Below are positions 4,015-11,796 of a stretch of 15,561 nt of DNA, in pieces. Within the stretch, counting starts at the first letter, position 1; every line of letters starts with the position of its first letter. Origin of the DNA: an uncultured Erysipelotrichaceae bacterium (GTDB lineage: Bacteria > Bacillota_I > Bacilli_A > Erysipelotrichales > Coprobacillaceae); contig CAMFRJ010000006.1 of assembly GCA_945981915.1 (NCBI GenBank), forward strand, positions 1 through 15,561, read 5' to 3'. The notes below the pieces were generated by a model. That model had not been told where the DNA came from and searched no databases. It was given only the letters and a program-made list of their open reading frames with translations. The translations under genes were made by a program, and so were the position numbers.

Positions 4015-4043
4015 ATTATATAGTCAATGATTAAAAAAATCAA
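4015..4043 (-). promoter_or_regulatory. Sigma-A promoter of the mreC-mreD-minCD-spoIVFAB operon
   Basis: The minus strand reads TTGATT (4038-4043), exactly 17 bases, TATAAT (4015-4020), close to the vegetative consensus. The -35 overlaps the TGA stop of radC, and the expected start near 4008 gives a leader of about 17 bases carrying the mreC SD. This implies that the shape and division genes can be transcribed independently of the SPOR-radC unit. Confidence 0.8.
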
Positions 4044-4720
4044 TTATCTTTACATTTATGAATTTGACCTGTTGCAAAACTATAAAAACAATGTGTGCCA
4101 ACAATCAGATGATCAACCATTTCAATTTGAAGAGATGCTGCCATCTCAATCATCCTTTCTGTAATCATTTTATCTTCAGCTGATGGACTAGGATTTCCAC
4201 TTGGATGATTGTGTACCAACATAAACCGACTGGCTCCACATTTGAAGATCTGTTGAAAAATCTTGATAGGTTCCATCATAGACGTAGATTCACCTCCTAC
4301 AAATAATACTTTTTCAAAGACCACCTCTAATTTTGCATTCAAACAGATTAAGATAACCTTTTCTTGTTGTTCAAATAACAATCTGTTTTTGACAAGATGA
4401 TATCCATCCATCGGTTCCTTGATCACATATCTGTTTTCTTTGATATTTTGCATTCTTTTTGCGAGTTCTATGCAAGCCAATAACTCTATAGCTTTGGCTT
4501 TTTTAATTCCTTTTATTTGAATCAACTGATAATAATCAACATCTTTTAAATGATGAAAACCACCAATTGTTTCTAATAATAATTGTGCCAATTCTAAAAC
4601 AGAAAGAGATTGATGACCCGTTCTTAAAATGATAGCGATCAATTCCTGGTGAGAAAGGGTTTCAATACCATAACGTATCGCTTTTTCTCTAGGTCTTTCT
4701 TCAACGGGATAATTGATCAT
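4040..4720 (-). CDS. radC: RadC/YsxA family JAMM-domain protein
   Basis: This 226-residue protein has the usual RadC layout: an N-terminal UPF0758 region with helix-hairpin-helix (I-K-G-I-K-K-A-K-A about 68-76) and a C-terminal JAMM/MPN+ domain. The metal-binding signature H-N-H-P-S-G-N-P-S-P-S-A-E-D spans 170-183 (H170, H172, D183). Size matches B. subtilis YsxA (231). The fold is that of a zinc-dependent isopeptidase; the old link to DNA repair is not well supported in Firmicutes, so the cellular role is open. The SD GAGGAG precedes ATG 4718-4720, which overlaps the upstream SPOR gene stop in an ATGA arrangement, indicating coupling. The stop lies inside the mreC -35 element. The position next to the shape genes is as in Bacillus, though maf and mreB are absent. 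Confidence 0.95.
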   Translation of the reverse strand: MINYPVEERPREKAIRYGIETLSHQELIAIILRTGHQSLSVLELAQLLLETIGGFHHLKDVDYYQLIQIKGIKKAKAIELLACIELAKRMQNIKENRYVIKEPMDGYHLVKNRLLFEQQEKVILICLNAKLEVVFEKVLFVGGESTSMMEPIKIFQQIFKCGASRFMLVHNHPSGNPSPSAEDKMITERMIEMAASLQIEMVDHLIVGTHCFYSFATGQIHKCKDN

Positions 4721-5097
4721 GATTTCAGCTCCTCATAAATATGTTCATATTTTTGTGATGTGACTTCATTTTTATATTTTTGATCAATCTGGTATTCTTT
4801 CACGACACATGACATTCCTTTTTGAGATATCTCTTTGGCCATCTGATTCGCTTCATCTTGCGTGCAAACAATCTTTGCAAGAACAACGATATCTTTGTCT
4901 TGATAACGATAACCCTGATATCCTGCTTTTTTTAATTGTTCAATCATTTGATTTGCATTTTCCTCCTTTTTATATCTTCCCATCTGTATGACATAGACAC
5001 TGATTTCTTGTTTCAATACATGATCCAGATATAAAAAAATAACTGTATTCATGATCATCATGACACAAGCTGTCATCAACATTGCTTTACGTTTCAT
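4717..5097 (-). CDS. Membrane-anchored SPOR-domain protein (SpoIIB-like position)
   Basis: This 126-residue protein has a short basic start, one membrane segment (about 6-26) and a SPOR domain at about 32-104 (V-Y-V-I-Q-M-G-R-Y opening strand, a helix rich in E/N/Q, a second strand with I-V-V-L-A-K-I). A polar K/E-rich tail follows. SPOR domains bind denuded glycan strands at septa. In B. subtilis the SPOR protein SpoIIB, which acts in engulfment and septal localisation of SpoIIDMP, lies close upstream of radC. Position and domain therefore suggest a shortened SpoIIB (B. subtilis about 332 residues), but this is inference and a division-linked SPOR protein is the alternative. The SD is GAGGTGA ahead of ATG 5095-5097. 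It overlaps radC by four bases. A sigma-E-like promoter lies upstream, which favours a sporulation role. Confidence 0.8.
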   Translation of the reverse strand: MKRKAMLMTACVMMIMNTVIFLYLDHVLKQEISVYVIQMGRYKKEENANQMIEQLKKAGYQGYRYQDKDIVVLAKIVCTQDEANQMAKEISQKGMSCVVKEYQIDQKYKNEVTSQKYEHIYEELKS

Positions 5098-5113: not shown

Positions 5114-5141
5114 ATCATATGTTGGTAAGAAAAGAATATGA
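5114..5141 (-). promoter_or_regulatory. Candidate sigma-E-like promoter of the SPOR-radC unit
   Basis: The minus strand reads TCATATT (5135-5141), 13 bases, CATATGAT (5114-5121). TCATATT is a full match to the B. subtilis sigma-E -35 (KMATATT), and the -10 resembles CATACAnT. The spacer is about one base shorter than the Bacillus norm but equals that of the spoVID candidate. The -35 lies within the downstream arm of the terminator of the upstream peptide gene. Confidence 0.5.
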
Positions 5142-5163
5142 AAGAATACTTTCATATTCTTTT
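5130..5163 (-). terminator. Hairpin terminator after the 52-codon peptide gene
   Basis: There is a perfect 15-bp inverted repeat with a four-base loop (arms 5130-5144 and 5149-5163), beginning three bases after the stop of the small gene. The downstream arm ends in TTTT on the minus strand. The stem is AT-rich and the U-run belongs to the stem, so termination may be partial. Confidence 0.7.
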
Positions 5164-5166
5164 GTC

Positions 5167-5325
5167 TTAGCGCCATTCAATTGAGATCAATTTAGGAATA
5201 GATACACGTCCACTTCTTGAAAAAAGCATTTTATAGACTGCCGCTCCAACAACAACACAAACAATCCAAGTTCCAACACCTCCACCAACAATCTCCATTT
5301 GTTGTGCTATTTGTAATTCATTCAT
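5167..5325 (-). CDS. 52-residue putative double-glycine secreted peptide (bacteriocin- or pheromone-like)
   Basis: Translation of the minus strand gives 52 residues starting M-N-E-L-Q-I-A-Q-Q-M-E-I-V-G-G-G and ending I-E-W-R. The ATG (5323-5325) has GAGGAGG six bases ahead, among the strongest SDs in the window. Residues 1-16 look like a double-glycine leader: Met at -7, Val at -4 and Gly-Gly at -2/-1 if cut after G16, with two acidic residues. The remaining 36 residues are a hydrophobic stretch (about 17-35) with G-x-x-x-x-x-x-G-A-A spacing and one Cys (C23), then a basic tail with five K/R and one E. This is the pattern of class II bacteriocins and related peptide signals matured by peptidase-containing ABC exporters. 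No exporter or immunity gene is in the window. The gene is isolated between two terminators. Alternative: a small single-pass membrane protein, possibly of sporulation. I do not recognise the family. Confidence 0.72.
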   Translation of the reverse strand: MNELQIAQQMEIVGGGVGTWIVCVVVGAAVYKMLFSRSGRVSIPKLISIEWR

Positions 5326-5414
5326 TGTATTCCTCCTCTTTAATTATAAGGAAAAGACATTCCACTAACTTCCTCACTTATATATAATCCTTTTTTGACC
5401 ATTTTTCTTCTCAT
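5326..5414 (-). promoter_or_regulatory. Upstream region of the peptide gene with possible -10
   Basis: Between the valS terminator and the small gene the minus strand carries TATAAT at 5343-5348, but the -35 at 17 bases (AAGTTA) is poor, suggesting an activated promoter. The segment before it contains a GGAA-N6-TTCC inverted repeat and AAGTTAGT, which matches most of the LytTR-type response-regulator half-site; a properly spaced second half-site was not found. Control is therefore unresolved. Confidence 0.3.
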
Positions 5415-5446
5415 AAAAAAAGAATTAGGTATTTTACCTAATTCTT
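5415..5446 (-). terminator. Intrinsic terminator of the T-box/valS operon
   Basis: A perfect 12-bp stem (5420-5431 with 5435-5446) with a three-base loop is followed on the minus strand by a T run (5415-5419 continuing from the stem). The base of the stem includes part of the valS stop codon TAA (5445-5447), so termination starts right at the end of translation. Confidence 0.9.
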
Positions 5447-8057
5447 ACATAGTTTCTAATTTTTCTTTAACAGCTTGATATTTTGATGTATAATCTGCCA
5501 ATTTCTTTCTTTCACTATCAACCTTTGCCTGTGGTGCTTTAGAAACAAACTTTTCATTATTTAACATATTGTTACAACGTTTGATCTCACTTTCAAGCTT
5601 TTGAAGTTCAGCTTCTAATTTTTGTTTTTCAGCTTCTTTATCAACATAAGCTCCTAATTCAACAATTAAAGTATTTCCACCTTGAATTGTTGCAGTAGCA
5701 ACATCTTCAGATTTATTTGTATTATAACCTACACAACGTGCATGACACAATTTTTGTAAGTATGGAACACACATATCTAATAATGAACGTAATGAATCAT
5801 CTTTTGTATCAATCGAATATTCAACTTCAATAGCATTTTTAATTGTATAGTTCGCACGAATTTCACGAATACCCTTAACAATATCCATCAGATAAGTAAA
5901 TTGTTCATTAATTGTTTCATCATCAAATCTTGCATCTGGTTCAGGATACTTAGCAATACAGATTGATTCTTCTAAATGAGGAATCGCTTGATAAATTTCT
6001 TCTGTTACAAAAGGCATAAATGGATGAAGCATTCTGACAATTGCGTTTAATACATAAACGAGTGTATTAACGCTTGCTTGTTTTTCTTCATCATGATCAC
6101 TATTTAAATGAACTTTAGAAAGTTCAATATACCATGAGCAGAAATCATCCCAAATAAAGTTATATAAAGCTGTCCCAACATTGACAAATTCATATTTATC
6201 CATATTTATATTGACTTCTTTAATGACTTCATTCAAACGATTTAAGATCCATTTATCACAAAGATTAAGATGATCAAATGTTAAATCTTTATATTCTAGA
6301 TCTTCATCAATATTCATCAAGACAAATCTTGCTGAATTCCAAATTTTATTAATAAAATTCCATGAAGATTCTACTTTTTCTGGAATATATCTGAGATCTT
6401 GTCCAGGTGCTGAATTTGTTGTTAAGAAATATCTTAATGCATCACATCCATATTGATCGATAACATCCATTGGATCAACACCATTTCCAAGTGATTTAGA
6501 CATTTTTCTACCTTGTGAATCACGAATCAAACCATGAATCAAACAATCTTTAAATGGTCTTTGTCCTGTTAATTCAATTCCTTGGAAGACCATACGTGCT
6601 ACCCAGAAGAAAATAATATCATAGGCTGTTACTAAGACATCGTTTGGATAATAACGCTGTAAATCAATTGTATCATTTGGCCACCCTAAAGTACTAAAAG
6701 GCCATAATGCACTTGAAAACCACGTATCTAAAACATCTTCATCCTGTTTCCATCCATCACCTTCAGGTGCACTCACTCCTACATAAACTTCATCTCCACG
6801 ATACCAGGCAGGAATACGATGTCCCCACCATAACTGTCTGGAAATACACCAGTCATAACAGTTTTCCATCCATTGTTTTAATGTCTTTTCAAATCTTCCT
6901 GGTACAAAATTCACTTTTTTATCAGGATCTTTTTGATTTTCTAACACTTGAGCAGCCAATTTATCCATTTTTACAAACCATTGTTTCGATAAATATGGTT
7001 CTACAACACAATGTGTTCTTTCACTATGACCAACACTATGAACCATCGGTTCAATTTTAATTAATAGATCAGCAGCTTTTAAATCTTCCACTAATGCATC
7101 TCGACAAGCTTCTCTTGTCATACCACAGTATTTCCCTGCATTTTCATTCATTGTTGCATCCGGATTCATCACCACAACTCTTTCTAAGTTATGTCTATTT
7201 CCTACTTCAAAGTCGTTTGGATCATGTGCAGGTGTGATTTTAACAACCCCTGTTCCAAATTCTGGATCCGCATGTATATCGCCAACAATTGGAATTAATT
7301 TATTAACGATTGGTAAAATAACATGTTTTCCAATCAAATCTTTATATCTTTCATCCTTTGGATTAACTGCAACAGCAGTATCACCAAATAAAGTTTCTGG
7401 TCTTGTTGTCGCAACTTCTAAATAACGACTATGATCTTCTAAATAATATTTTAAATGATAGAACGCTCCTTCATCATCCTGATAGATAACTTCTTCATTA
7501 GATAAAGCTGTCTGTTGAATAGGATCCCAGTTAATGATCTTTTCTCCACGGTAAATAATACCTTTATTATAATAATCAACAAAGACTTTCGTAACAGCTT
7601 CATTTAAGCCTTCATCTAAAGTAAATCTTTCTTTAGAATAATCTAAAGATAGTCCTAATTTCGCCCATTGTTGTCTAATATTTCCAGCATATTCTTCTTT
7701 CCATTCCCATGCTTTTTCCAAGAAACCTTCTCTACCTAAATCACGTTTGTTGATGCCTTGTTTTTTTAATTTTTCAACAACTTTAACTTCTGTCGCAATC
7801 GCCGCATGATCCATTCCTGGAAGCCACAAAGCATCATAGCCCTGCATTCTTTTATAACGAATGATCATATCTTGTAACGTTGTATCCCACGCATGTCCTA
7901 AATGAAGTTTACCAGTAACATTTGGTGGTGGTATAACAATCGCATATGGTTTTTTAGATGTATCACCTGCTTTAAAATACTCTTTGTCTAACCATTGTTG
8001 ATATTTTCCTTCTTCAACACTTTGATGATTATATTTACTTGCAAGTTCCTTCTTCAT
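5445..8057 (-). CDS. valS: Valyl-tRNA synthetase
   Basis: This is an 870-residue class Ia synthetase that charges tRNA-Val in the cytoplasm. The HIGH motif appears as HLGH at 52-55 and KMSKS at 518-522. The CP1 editing domain, which hydrolyses Thr-tRNA-Val, is present from about 190 to 340 with T-T-R-P-E-T at 217-222. A tryptophan-rich catalytic segment [10 protein letters not shown] at about 410-419 and the C-terminal coiled coil (about 805-870, K/E/L-rich) that binds the tRNA elbow complete the architecture. Length is typical (B. subtilis 880). The ATG at 8055-8057 has AAAGGGGG at a suitable distance; a TTG six codons upstream would contain this SD and is rejected. It overlaps the upstream 224-residue gene by 23 bases and shares its T-box leader, so expression should rise when tRNA-Val is uncharged. 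A strong terminator follows. Confidence 0.99.
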
Positions 8058-8709
8058 ATGTATCCCCCTTTTCAATAAAGCTATCTTTATGAGCTCTTAT
8101 ATATTCTCCCGCTTTATTAAATAATCCAGATGATCTTAATAATGCTTTTAACTCATTAGTAAAATCAGAAAAATTATATGTTGCATAATCACTATTTTCA
8201 TCGATATCATCTTCTTGATCGTTTTCAATCATGATAGCTAATTTTTCTGCTTCTTCTAATAGATGAGCAATTTCATGACAGTTCATTAATTCATATGCTT
8301 CTTTATAATAAGGTCTACAAAGACAATAAGGTTCATCAATAAAGAAACTATGAATAGAACCATTTCTTTGTTGTAAAGAATTTTCTACTTGATATAAAGT
8401 ATAAATCATTAATTCATCATGTGTTAAATAAGGAATAATATTCCCATCATAATCATCATTATCAAATAAACGGTCTTCTTTTGCCTGTATATGAAAGATC
8501 ACAGCTTTTGTCAGATCATTTGTATCCACTTCATCAAAAACCGCACTTGTTAAATGAGAAAACAAATCTTTTTCTTCTTCAAATTTAGCTTCCTGTTGTT
8601 TTCTGGCATTTTTCACACGCATAATTCTTTTTCCAAAAAAACTAATCAGAAAAAAACAACATAATGCAAAAACAATCCAAATATAATAATATTTTGTAAA
8701 TACTTCCAT
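8035..8709 (-). CDS. Membrane-anchored unknown protein, first gene of the valine T-box operon
   Basis: This 224-residue protein has one N-terminal membrane segment (about 8-25), a basic stop-transfer stretch ([12 protein letters not shown]), a charged linker and a soluble, acidic helical domain. Residues 97-157 ([12 protein letters not shown], then [12 protein letters not shown], then an A-H-L-L-E-E-A helix) faintly resemble the DUF4375/DMP19 domain, where a core like N-G-G-F-x-Q-F-F-x-N follows a helix. This is pattern memory, not a search. The ATG 8707-8709 follows GAAGGAGG; an in-frame ATG ten codons upstream lies inside the T-box terminator hairpin and lacks an SD. It sits between the T-box and valS, overlapping valS, so it should be made when Val-tRNA is short. 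I do not know its function; a role in valine metabolism or translation stress is only suggested by context. Confidence 0.85.
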
Positions 8710-8727
8710 CGTTCTTCCTCCTTCAAT

Positions 8728-8755
8728 AAAAAAAGCCATCCATCTAAGGACGACT
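8728..8755 (-). terminator. Regulated terminator of the T-box leader
   Basis: The stem arms are 8748-8755 and 8734-8741 with a six-base loop; one G-U and one U-G pair are present. The U run is 8728-8734. Its 5' arm follows directly on, and competes with, the antiterminator strand carrying GUCCUU. The SD of the next gene begins only a few bases after the U run. Confidence 0.9.
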
Positions 8756-8944
8756 TGATCGCGTTACCACCTTAGTTCTAAGAATTGTCTTAGCACCTCA
8801 AAACTTTAACGCAGTTCTACGTGTTAAACTACTTTGATTTCATCTAACAAGCTCCTTGGCTACCTTCATTCTCTTTGACTATCCCTTTCCACCAAATAGG
8901 ACTCTCTATCAGACAAAAGAAGAATTACTCCTCCAATTCATCGC
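8728..8944 (-). ncRNA. T-box riboswitch leader, valine type
   Basis: The minus-strand leader holds the T-box sequence AAGGTGGTAACGCG (8760-8773), whose UGGU can pair with the uncharged NCCA end of a tRNA with discriminator A, as in tRNA-Val. A likely specifier is GUA (valine) at 8861-8863, in GAAGGUAGC on the 3' side of Stem I. The conserved GUCCUU closes the antiterminator. The alternative terminator is an 8-bp stem (AGTCGTCC with GGATGGCT, 8734-8755) followed by seven Us. Uncharged tRNA-Val is expected to stabilise the antiterminator and let transcription proceed into the 224-residue gene and valS. The 5' end is set from the promoter and is approximate; the specifier call uses the downstream valS as support. 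Confidence 0.93.
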
Positions 8945-8950
8945 ACTATC

Positions 8951-10592: not shown

Positions 10593-10617
10593 AAAAAAAT
10601 AGGTGTTTCCACCTATT
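10592..10617 (-). terminator. Intrinsic terminator of engB
   Basis: A perfect 8-bp stem (10598-10605 with 10610-10617) with a GAAA tetraloop on the minus strand is followed by eight Ts (10592-10599, partly in the stem). The engB stop codon TAG (10613-10615) is inside the upstream arm. Confidence 0.92.
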
Positions 10618-11397: not shown

Positions 11398-11796
11398 ATG
11401 GATACAATAACTCTCATATTAATCATCATTTTTTTGCTACTATCTATCATTTTGATGAGCGTTTCTCGTATCATCAGTAAAAAAATAAAAAAGAATTGTT
11501 CATTAGAGATTGAAGCAATCGTTGAAAAATATAGTCAACATTATAGCTATACTAAAAACCATCGCTATCGCCTCCCACTCTATGGCTTTGATTATTGTGG
11601 AAATCATTATATAACAGAGGCAAAAGCACGTTTTGTAGGAGAAACTGAAATAGGAAAAAAACAGAAACTGATCATAGATCCTCACAATCCACAAGATAAT
11701 TATCGTAAAGATGATTTGATCTTACCACGATGTCTACTGATTTTGGGCATTTATTTTTTCTTTCTTTCCTTTTATATACTTCTTTCAACATTATAA
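11398..11796 (+). CDS. DUF3592-like membrane protein of unknown function
   Basis: This 132-residue protein has a membrane segment at each end (about 4-26 and 108-131) and a polar core of about 80 residues between them. The core has the pattern seen in DUF3592 proteins: a start like S-L-E-I-E-A-I-V-E-K-Y, then Y-R-L-P-L-Y-G-F-D-Y-C-G-N-H-Y, then an I-G-K-K-Q-K-L-I-I-D-P-H-N-P-Q-D motif. The family is common in gut bacteria and its role is not known to me. It is the only plus-strand gene in the window, inserted between lon and engB, which are neighbours in Bacillus. The SD AAAGGA lies seven bases before ATG 11398. It has its own promoter and shares its terminator with lon. The family call is from memory of the motif and should be checked by a profile search. 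Confidence 0.8.
   Translation: MDTITLILIIIFLLLSIILMSVSRIISKKIKKNCSLEIEAIVEKYSQHYSYTKNHRYRLPLYGFDYCGNHYITEAKARFVGETEIGKKQKLIIDPHNPQDNYRKDDLILPRCLLILGIYFFFLSFYILLSTL

Follow-up and report, generated by a model that had tools for sequence, protein, structure and literature searches.

The window analysed here, a stretch of DNA of 15,561 nucleotides, carries a short gene between valS and radC. The features of this locus are listed below.

4040-4720, minus: radC, downstream of the short gene, present in 33 of 34 loci of the window's own family and in 52 of 53 further loci
4717-5097, minus: gene with a SPOR domain (Pfam), the downstream neighbour
5131-5162, minus: terminator-like hairpin 3' of the precursor gene, with a main stem of 14 pairs
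5167-5325, minus: 52-codon precursor gene (stop codon included), ATG start
5170-5280, minus: predicted mature peptide of 37 residues, with a hydrophobic helix at about residues 19-35 of the precursor and a basic tail
5281-5325, minus: 15-residue leader MNELQIAQQMEIVGG, with Leu at -12, Gln at -7, Ile at -4 and Gly-Gly at -2/-1, based on the alignment and family-wide leader counts
5332-5338, minus: Shine-Dalgarno sequence GAGGAGG, six bases from the precursor ATG
5350-5387, minus: upstream stretch with a conserved TTAGTGG core, from an alignment of 11 relatives
5420-5446, minus: valS terminator, upstream border of the putative unit, a 12-pair stem followed by a T run
5445-8075, minus: valS, the upstream neighbour, present in 32 of 34 loci of the window's own family

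The 52-codon frame, first proposed in an earlier note on this DNA, was confirmed at 5167-5325 together with its ribosome-binding site. The same note had placed the frame between two hairpin terminators. Both hairpins exist, and the one on the valS side was called a terminator by consensus scan (fold of -12.6 kcal/mol, z -4.1), but the downstream hairpin (-18.2 kcal/mol, z -8.5) has a short T run and received no terminator call from that scan. Since a terminator closes valS upstream and a strong hairpin lies 3' of the gene, the precursor gene looks like a transcription unit of its own. A promoter consensus scan returned nothing convincing (three sites over both strands versus 2.4 expected). The stretch with the TTAGTGG core was conserved in 10 of the 11 aligned relatives, and a TAGGGGCTAC-like sequence occupies the same position in other family members; a hairpin in this stretch was considered as an RNA element and rejected, its fold being no better than those of shuffled sequences. 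The sole Rfam match in the window was a T-box leader (8743-8950, 133.7 bits), which is found 5' of a DMP19-domain gene (8035-8739) that itself lies just upstream of valS; a DMP19-like gene adjoining valS recurs in 32 clustered loci. Further along, a 132-residue frame on the plus strand (11398-11796), opposite to its neighbours, lies between a lon-like gene and a GTPase-like gene at 10613, and none of the remaining clustered loci, most of which end before this point, showed a counterpart.

The genomic place of the peptide gene was compared among loci of the window's own family (f1), a second family of the order (f2) and two further families of the class (f8 and f19). In f1, valS was on the same strand in 32 of 34 loci, and the exceptions for valS and radC were loci in which the contig ends on that side. 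Among 53 further loci (49 of f2 and 4 of f1), radC came next on the same strand in 52; no radC match was found in G192, where mreC and valS are present. By comparison, valS was found in just 6 of these 53 stretches, and the valS side is not general for f2 there. Twenty loci of f8 and f19 were read and had radC in 19 cases, valS in 16 and at least one of the two in each. The genes mreC and mreD come after radC, and many f1 loci add minC, minD and further genes. The SPOR-domain gene is putatively spoIIB-like by its position, and most gene names at the compared loci are putative assignments from sequence. The place of the peptide gene upstream of radC is fixed nearly everywhere. As the earlier note had supposed, no exporter adjoins the gene, its neighbours being valS, the SPOR-domain gene, radC and mreCD; an adjacent immunity gene was not evident either, although frames of fewer than 70 residues were not clustered, such that a very small one could be missed.

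Conservation of the frame, a check suggested in the same note, extended far beyond chance, with matches at E<=1 in 41 of 60 genomes (its own included), the weakest of these being chance matches. Full-length matches had E values of 1e-25 for members of the genus, falling off to about 1e-8 for more distant members of the family; among named relatives, Faecalibacillus faecis and F. intestinalis were 81% identical and [Clostridium] spiroforme 73%, which puts the window within or close to Faecalibacillus (Coprobacillaceae). An order-level search with a 32-row profile (A3) matched 102 of 294 genomes at E<=0.01, of which 40 were in f1 and 61-62 in f2, where the match in G147, inside a 304-residue frame, is probably spurious. 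The f1 genomes with no peptide match under this profile were G014, G015 and G028. The class-wide search matched 64 of 346 genomes, and 42 of these lay outside the order, in f8 and f19. Within the genus, dN/dS was 0.09-0.23 in the 11 of 15 pairs for which it was computable and non-zero; the proteins were identical in one of the remaining pairs and dS was saturated in three. The 52-codon gene is real and, as measured within the genus, under purifying selection. Copy number varied in places: one genus (g8) has three to four tandem, diverging copies of the peptide gene (L051, L055, L040 and L023), in the g4 genomes and G017 the gene is followed by a second double-glycine (GG) leader peptide whose core differs, and further GG peptides stand ahead of it in G007 (loci L046, L047, L048, L049, L050 and L021 for these extra peptides).

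We then compared the anatomy of the precursor, which divides into the leader MNELQIAQQMEIVGG and the mature part GVGTWIVCVVVGAAVYKMLFSRSGRVSIPKLISIEWR. A leader ending in GGG, a single Cys (C23) within a hydrophobic stretch and a basic tail were seen as described in the earlier note, with a net charge of +4 after the GG. C23 is kept in near relatives only, and the S, GR, P and W of the tail are conserved in the family alignment. The cut after the third Gly and the 36-residue product starting V-G-T-W that had been proposed are probably one residue off. In the family alignment the GG occupies residues 14-15, and the next residue varies among G, S and A. Of 41 f1 peptides counted (tandem copies included), 40 have a leader of 15 residues, the odd one arising from an upstream start; thus, a product of 37 residues starting G-V-G-T-W, cut after the second Gly, is expected. 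This count took GG-bearing peptides and left out G009, an f1 genome whose leader ends in VGE and yet has the exporter. A prepilin-type leader, suggested by the position of comC near this locus in B. subtilis, was dropped on inspection. Leader position -12 is L or I in 41 of 41 f1 peptides, -4 is I, L or V in 38, and -7 is Q in 33 and M in 6. According to two reports, C39 domains bind the leader through a hydrophobic groove that accommodates its residues -12, -7 and -4, and they cleave directly behind the double Gly (PMC6363468, PMC10885120). Measured against this rule, -12 and -4 of the family leaders fit, whereas -7 is mostly Gln. The earlier note had claimed a hydrophobic residue at -7, but this position is Gln once the cut follows the second Gly. 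Leaders of this class are short and end in GG, GA or GS, as the 15-residue leader here does, and the assignment as a precursor of double-glycine type is supported.

Part of f2 encodes the peptide with no leader. Among f2 peptides with no leader, 25 distinct sequences span 39-42 residues, and the f2 GG peptides have 42 residues after the GG in five of six cases and 39 in the sixth. Because these lengths match, the leaderless frames start close to the predicted N-terminus of the mature peptide. Conservation as a membrane protein devoid of the GG leader, which the earlier note had set against its own reading, was found in this part of f2 and not in f1. The N-terminal side of the leaderless forms is uncharged and the tail carries a charge of +2 to +6, which by the positive-inside rule suggests an N-out/C-in orientation. 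The candidate cleavage site also drifts, to GK, GS and GR in f2 and to GE in f8 and f19. Structure prediction of the precursor from five sequences was of low confidence (mean pLDDT 63.5), and a PDB sequence search with the peptide profile gave three matches at E 0.97-1 that were taken as chance.

The earlier note had called the peptide a possible orphan and advised a genome search for a C39 peptidase ABC transporter. By this approach, one C39 peptidase-ABC protein was found in the window's own genome (73% complete), its copy cut by a contig end. It stands at the ybeY site, where relatives have the same gene, and together with the co-occurrence of leader and C39 across f2 (below) this speaks against an orphan. 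In f1, a C39-membrane-ABC protein is encoded directly before ybeY-cdd-era-recO, the ybeY start being within 80 bases in 28 of 33 cases and ybeY not found in the examined stretch in four. Of these 33 exporters, 30 are 663-688 residues in length; those not full length are the window's (contig end), G012 (split) and G032 (a 395-residue frame near a contig end). Pfam detected C39, membrane and ABC domains in the F. faecis-type exporter of L070, ABC motifs are kept in most f1 copies, and the Cys-His-Asp triad is present in 33 of 33 f1 proteins, six further peptide-bearing f1 genomes lying outside this sample. In part of f2, the same position is occupied by a bare C39 that is 111-129 residues long, and its distance from ybeY is at most 118 bases in 16 of 16 genomes. 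In f8 and f19 (loci L300-L340), the C39 is joined to 4-6 hydrophobic segments in proteins of about 400 residues (371-415 in total, two shorter) with neither a Walker A nor a signature motif, and Pfam found C39 alone in the two proteins searched; ybeY is within 215 bases in 31 of 41, further off in two and undetected in the stretch for eight. The triad was seen in 15 of 16 f2 and 39 of 41 f8/f19 proteins; a shifted alignment, or a short frame in the case of G539, may account for the exceptions. The combination that defines a peptidase-containing ABC transporter (PCAT), namely C39 triad, membrane part and ABC in one protein, is thus present in the f1 partner and absent from those of f2, f8 and f19.

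The relationship among these C39 proteins was less clear. The stand-alone C39 profile matches C39 domains in the PDB (6mpz, E 6.6e-6). Homology between the membrane parts of the f1 exporters and the f8/f19 proteins is weak (hhalign 54.8%, versus 0.1% for five column-shuffled controls). In a C39 tree of 54 rows, the f1 exporters join unrelated exporters (95/97), with the bare C39s and C39-membrane proteins outside, and a single clade of ybeY-locus C39s is not rejected (p 0.07). The tree fails to confirm one ybeY-locus C39 lineage, and an exporter may have taken the place of an older C39 at the ybeY site.

The distribution of leader and C39 was most informative in f2. Among 20 f2 genomes with a leader-bearing peptide, a profile search (A2) detected a bare C39 in 15, and a divergent one missed by this profile was found by reading in G063. 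Four others (G198, G222, G224 and G247) have no ybeY match in their assemblies and were excluded; hence, a bare C39 is present in 16 of 16 genomes in which the peptide has a leader and the ybeY locus could be read. By contrast, the A2 profile at E<=0.01 found a bare C39 in 0 of 41 leaderless f2 genomes. The leaderless G284 gave a weak match (E 0.003) that was partial and interrupted by a stop, and it was not counted. As the profile had missed G063, a C39 model was run at full sensitivity over the frames preceding ybeY in a subset of 15 from the 41 leaderless genomes; none of the 15 had one, and the positive controls were detected in six of six cases, G063 included and none of the six in the model seed. 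The leaderless set comprises 32 peptides read as sequence, G221 and G227 (partly read), G075 and five g21 genomes classed by frame length, and the ambiguous G189, which has a longer hydrophobic N-terminus at another locus. At genus level, C39 was present in 6 of 6 leader-bearing versus 0 of 12 leaderless genera (Fisher 5e-5, a value that ignores kinship). Intact small C39 frames (116-141 residues) were confined to leader-bearing genomes in the A2 search; the leaderless G087 and G120 have unrelated full exporters. Outside the order, a C39 protein accompanied the peptide in 41 of 42 genomes, the miss being G581, and G349, G365 and G385 have a full exporter as well. In a RadC tree, the leaderless rows do not form one clade (AU p 0.0004), and therefore the leader state changed more than once. 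Independent leader/C39 contrasts number 2-3, too few to reach significance.

Losses were also seen within f1. In G014, the room between valS and the SPOR-domain gene is too small for the peptide gene, and the catalytic Cys is gone from its exporter, which shows no Walker A either. The exporter of G028 has lost all three triad residues, and neither the peptide nor radC was found in this incomplete genome (L107 and L102, respectively, for these eroded proteins before ybeY). In G015, radC was not found and the exporter is cut by a contig end and so is uninformative.

Taken together, we estimate at roughly three in four the probability that the gene encodes a precursor paired with the C39 protein and matured to a 37-residue product, a proposal built on sequence comparison. 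The findings counted for it are conservation, selection, the place at radC, leader anatomy, the C39 triad in three architectures, the co-occurrence of leader and C39, the length of the leaderless forms, and the loss in G014 of both the peptide and the exporter Cys. The gene would encode the precursor of a small membrane peptide within the vertically inherited core. A C39 cysteine peptidase, encoded far off just before ybeY, would bind the 15-residue leader and, as comparison suggests, cut after Gly14-Gly15 to release a product consisting of a single hydrophobic helix and a basic tail. In Faecalibacillus, where C39 is the first domain of an ABC exporter, the peptide would probably be moved into or across the membrane during the cut, and the ABC part would drive this transfer in f1. 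Counted against the pairing are the few contrasts, the C39 tree, Gln at -7, the drifting cut sites and G009, as well as the tandem copies and extra GG peptides, which in some genera resemble secreted-peptide loci.

What becomes of the mature peptide is a more tentative matter. It may, with slightly less than an even chance, stay in or on the cell's own membrane and serve envelope housekeeping beside MreCD and MinCD, because the charges suggest an N-out/C-in orientation, the f8/f19 proteins have no ATPase motifs, the f2 partner has no transporter, and at E<=1e-5 none of the 16 bare-C39 genomes shows a C39 exporter of full length, although they might use other ABC exporters. A bolder reading, likewise with slightly less than an even chance, is that C39 leader cutting has here been uncoupled from ABC export, forming a dispersed two-gene maturation system for a membrane peptide of the cell itself, in which the exporter parts would be optional and which would have been dismantled more than once by joint loss of leader and protease, the mature peptide then being encoded directly.

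Secretion of the mature peptide by the C39-ABC protein as a signal or developmental peptide, sensed by other cells or by mother cell and spore, is less likely but deserves consideration. The retained ABC motifs of most f1 exporters and the complete domain set of the F. faecis exporter are as this explanation would have them, as are the tandem copies of g8 and the additional GG peptides at the g4, G017 and G007 loci; moreover, PCATs serve heterocyst development (PMC10986499) and GG proteins serve biofilm formation (PMC4997328). However, no sensor gene was seen adjoining the peptide gene in the clustered loci, and the same peptide is kept at the same place with ATPase-less or bare C39s and in leaderless forms. 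An accidental likeness, with an ordinary small membrane protein whose N-terminus stays uncut, is improbable: leaderless and altered-site orthologues and the small number of independent contrasts would agree with it, but almost every f1 peptide counted retains the leader length and the residues at -12 and -4, intact stand-alone C39 frames were confined to leader-bearing genomes in the A2 search, and G014, with no peptide, has a C39 devoid of its catalytic Cys. Slightly less probable still is a class II-like bacteriocin or toxin whose exporter is encoded elsewhere, a bacteriocin having been entertained in the earlier note, since the GG leader, the hydrophobic core and a weak match to lactobin A/cerein 7B (17.7 bits; 5 of 32 profile members at E<=0.1) are outweighed by a curated NCBIfam cut-off of 21.5 bits, on which together with gene context membership was rejected, by the lack of an evident immunity gene beside the peptide gene, by vertical inheritance, cross-family synteny and purifying selection unlike those of arms-race peptides, and by leaderless orthologues at the same locus in genomes with no partner C39.

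Most of what is known of C39 peptidases and GG leaders comes from the export of bacteriocins and pheromones. The pairing of leader and C39 described here looks like housekeeping, being found in four families at fixed core loci and under purifying selection where measured, and the series from exporter to membrane part with no ATPase, to bare peptidase, to nothing suggests which part is dispensable. Whether cleavage by C39 could serve a resident membrane protein is directly testable with an enzyme of about 120 residues and a substrate of about 57, and the peptide gene is short enough for annotation of human gut commensals to overlook. GG peptides and their exporters are of an already known kind; in the open-licence literature searched, nothing was found on this peptide family, on the C39 series, on a stand-alone C39 that works with a GG peptide encoded far away, or on C39-membrane proteins lacking the ATPase.

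Compared to the PCAT/AMS systems (ComA-ComC, LahT), the window's family is alike in its GG leader of about 15 residues with Leu at -12 and an aliphatic -4, its C39 Cys-His-Asp and its full PCAT architecture. It differs in that the genes for peptide and C39 lie far apart, each in a housekeeping locus, in that Gln predominates at -7, in that other families have a C39 with no ATPase or alone, and in that leaderless orthologues exist. The class IIb bacteriocins lactobin A and cerein 7B (TIGR03949) similarly have a GG leader followed by a hydrophobic stretch, but the window peptide falls below their cut-off, has no immunity gene in view and is vertical and syntenic. HetC of Nostoc, a PCAT needed for heterocyst formation and of unknown substrate, is likewise chromosomal and serves the cell itself, and no neighbouring GG peptide was found (PMC10986499). 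Here, unlike for HetC, co-variation provides a substrate candidate, and an ATPase-less or bare form of HetC was not seen in the available part of that source (PMC10986499). In Synechococcus elongatus, biofilm formation involves the GG proteins EbfG1-4 and the peptidase transporter PteB, a case that resembles the present one in having GG proteins which are no bacteriocins and depend on a C39 Cys (PMC4997328). The EbfG proteins are secreted (PMC4997328), whereas here leaderless orthologues exist and a resident membrane role would be as likely.
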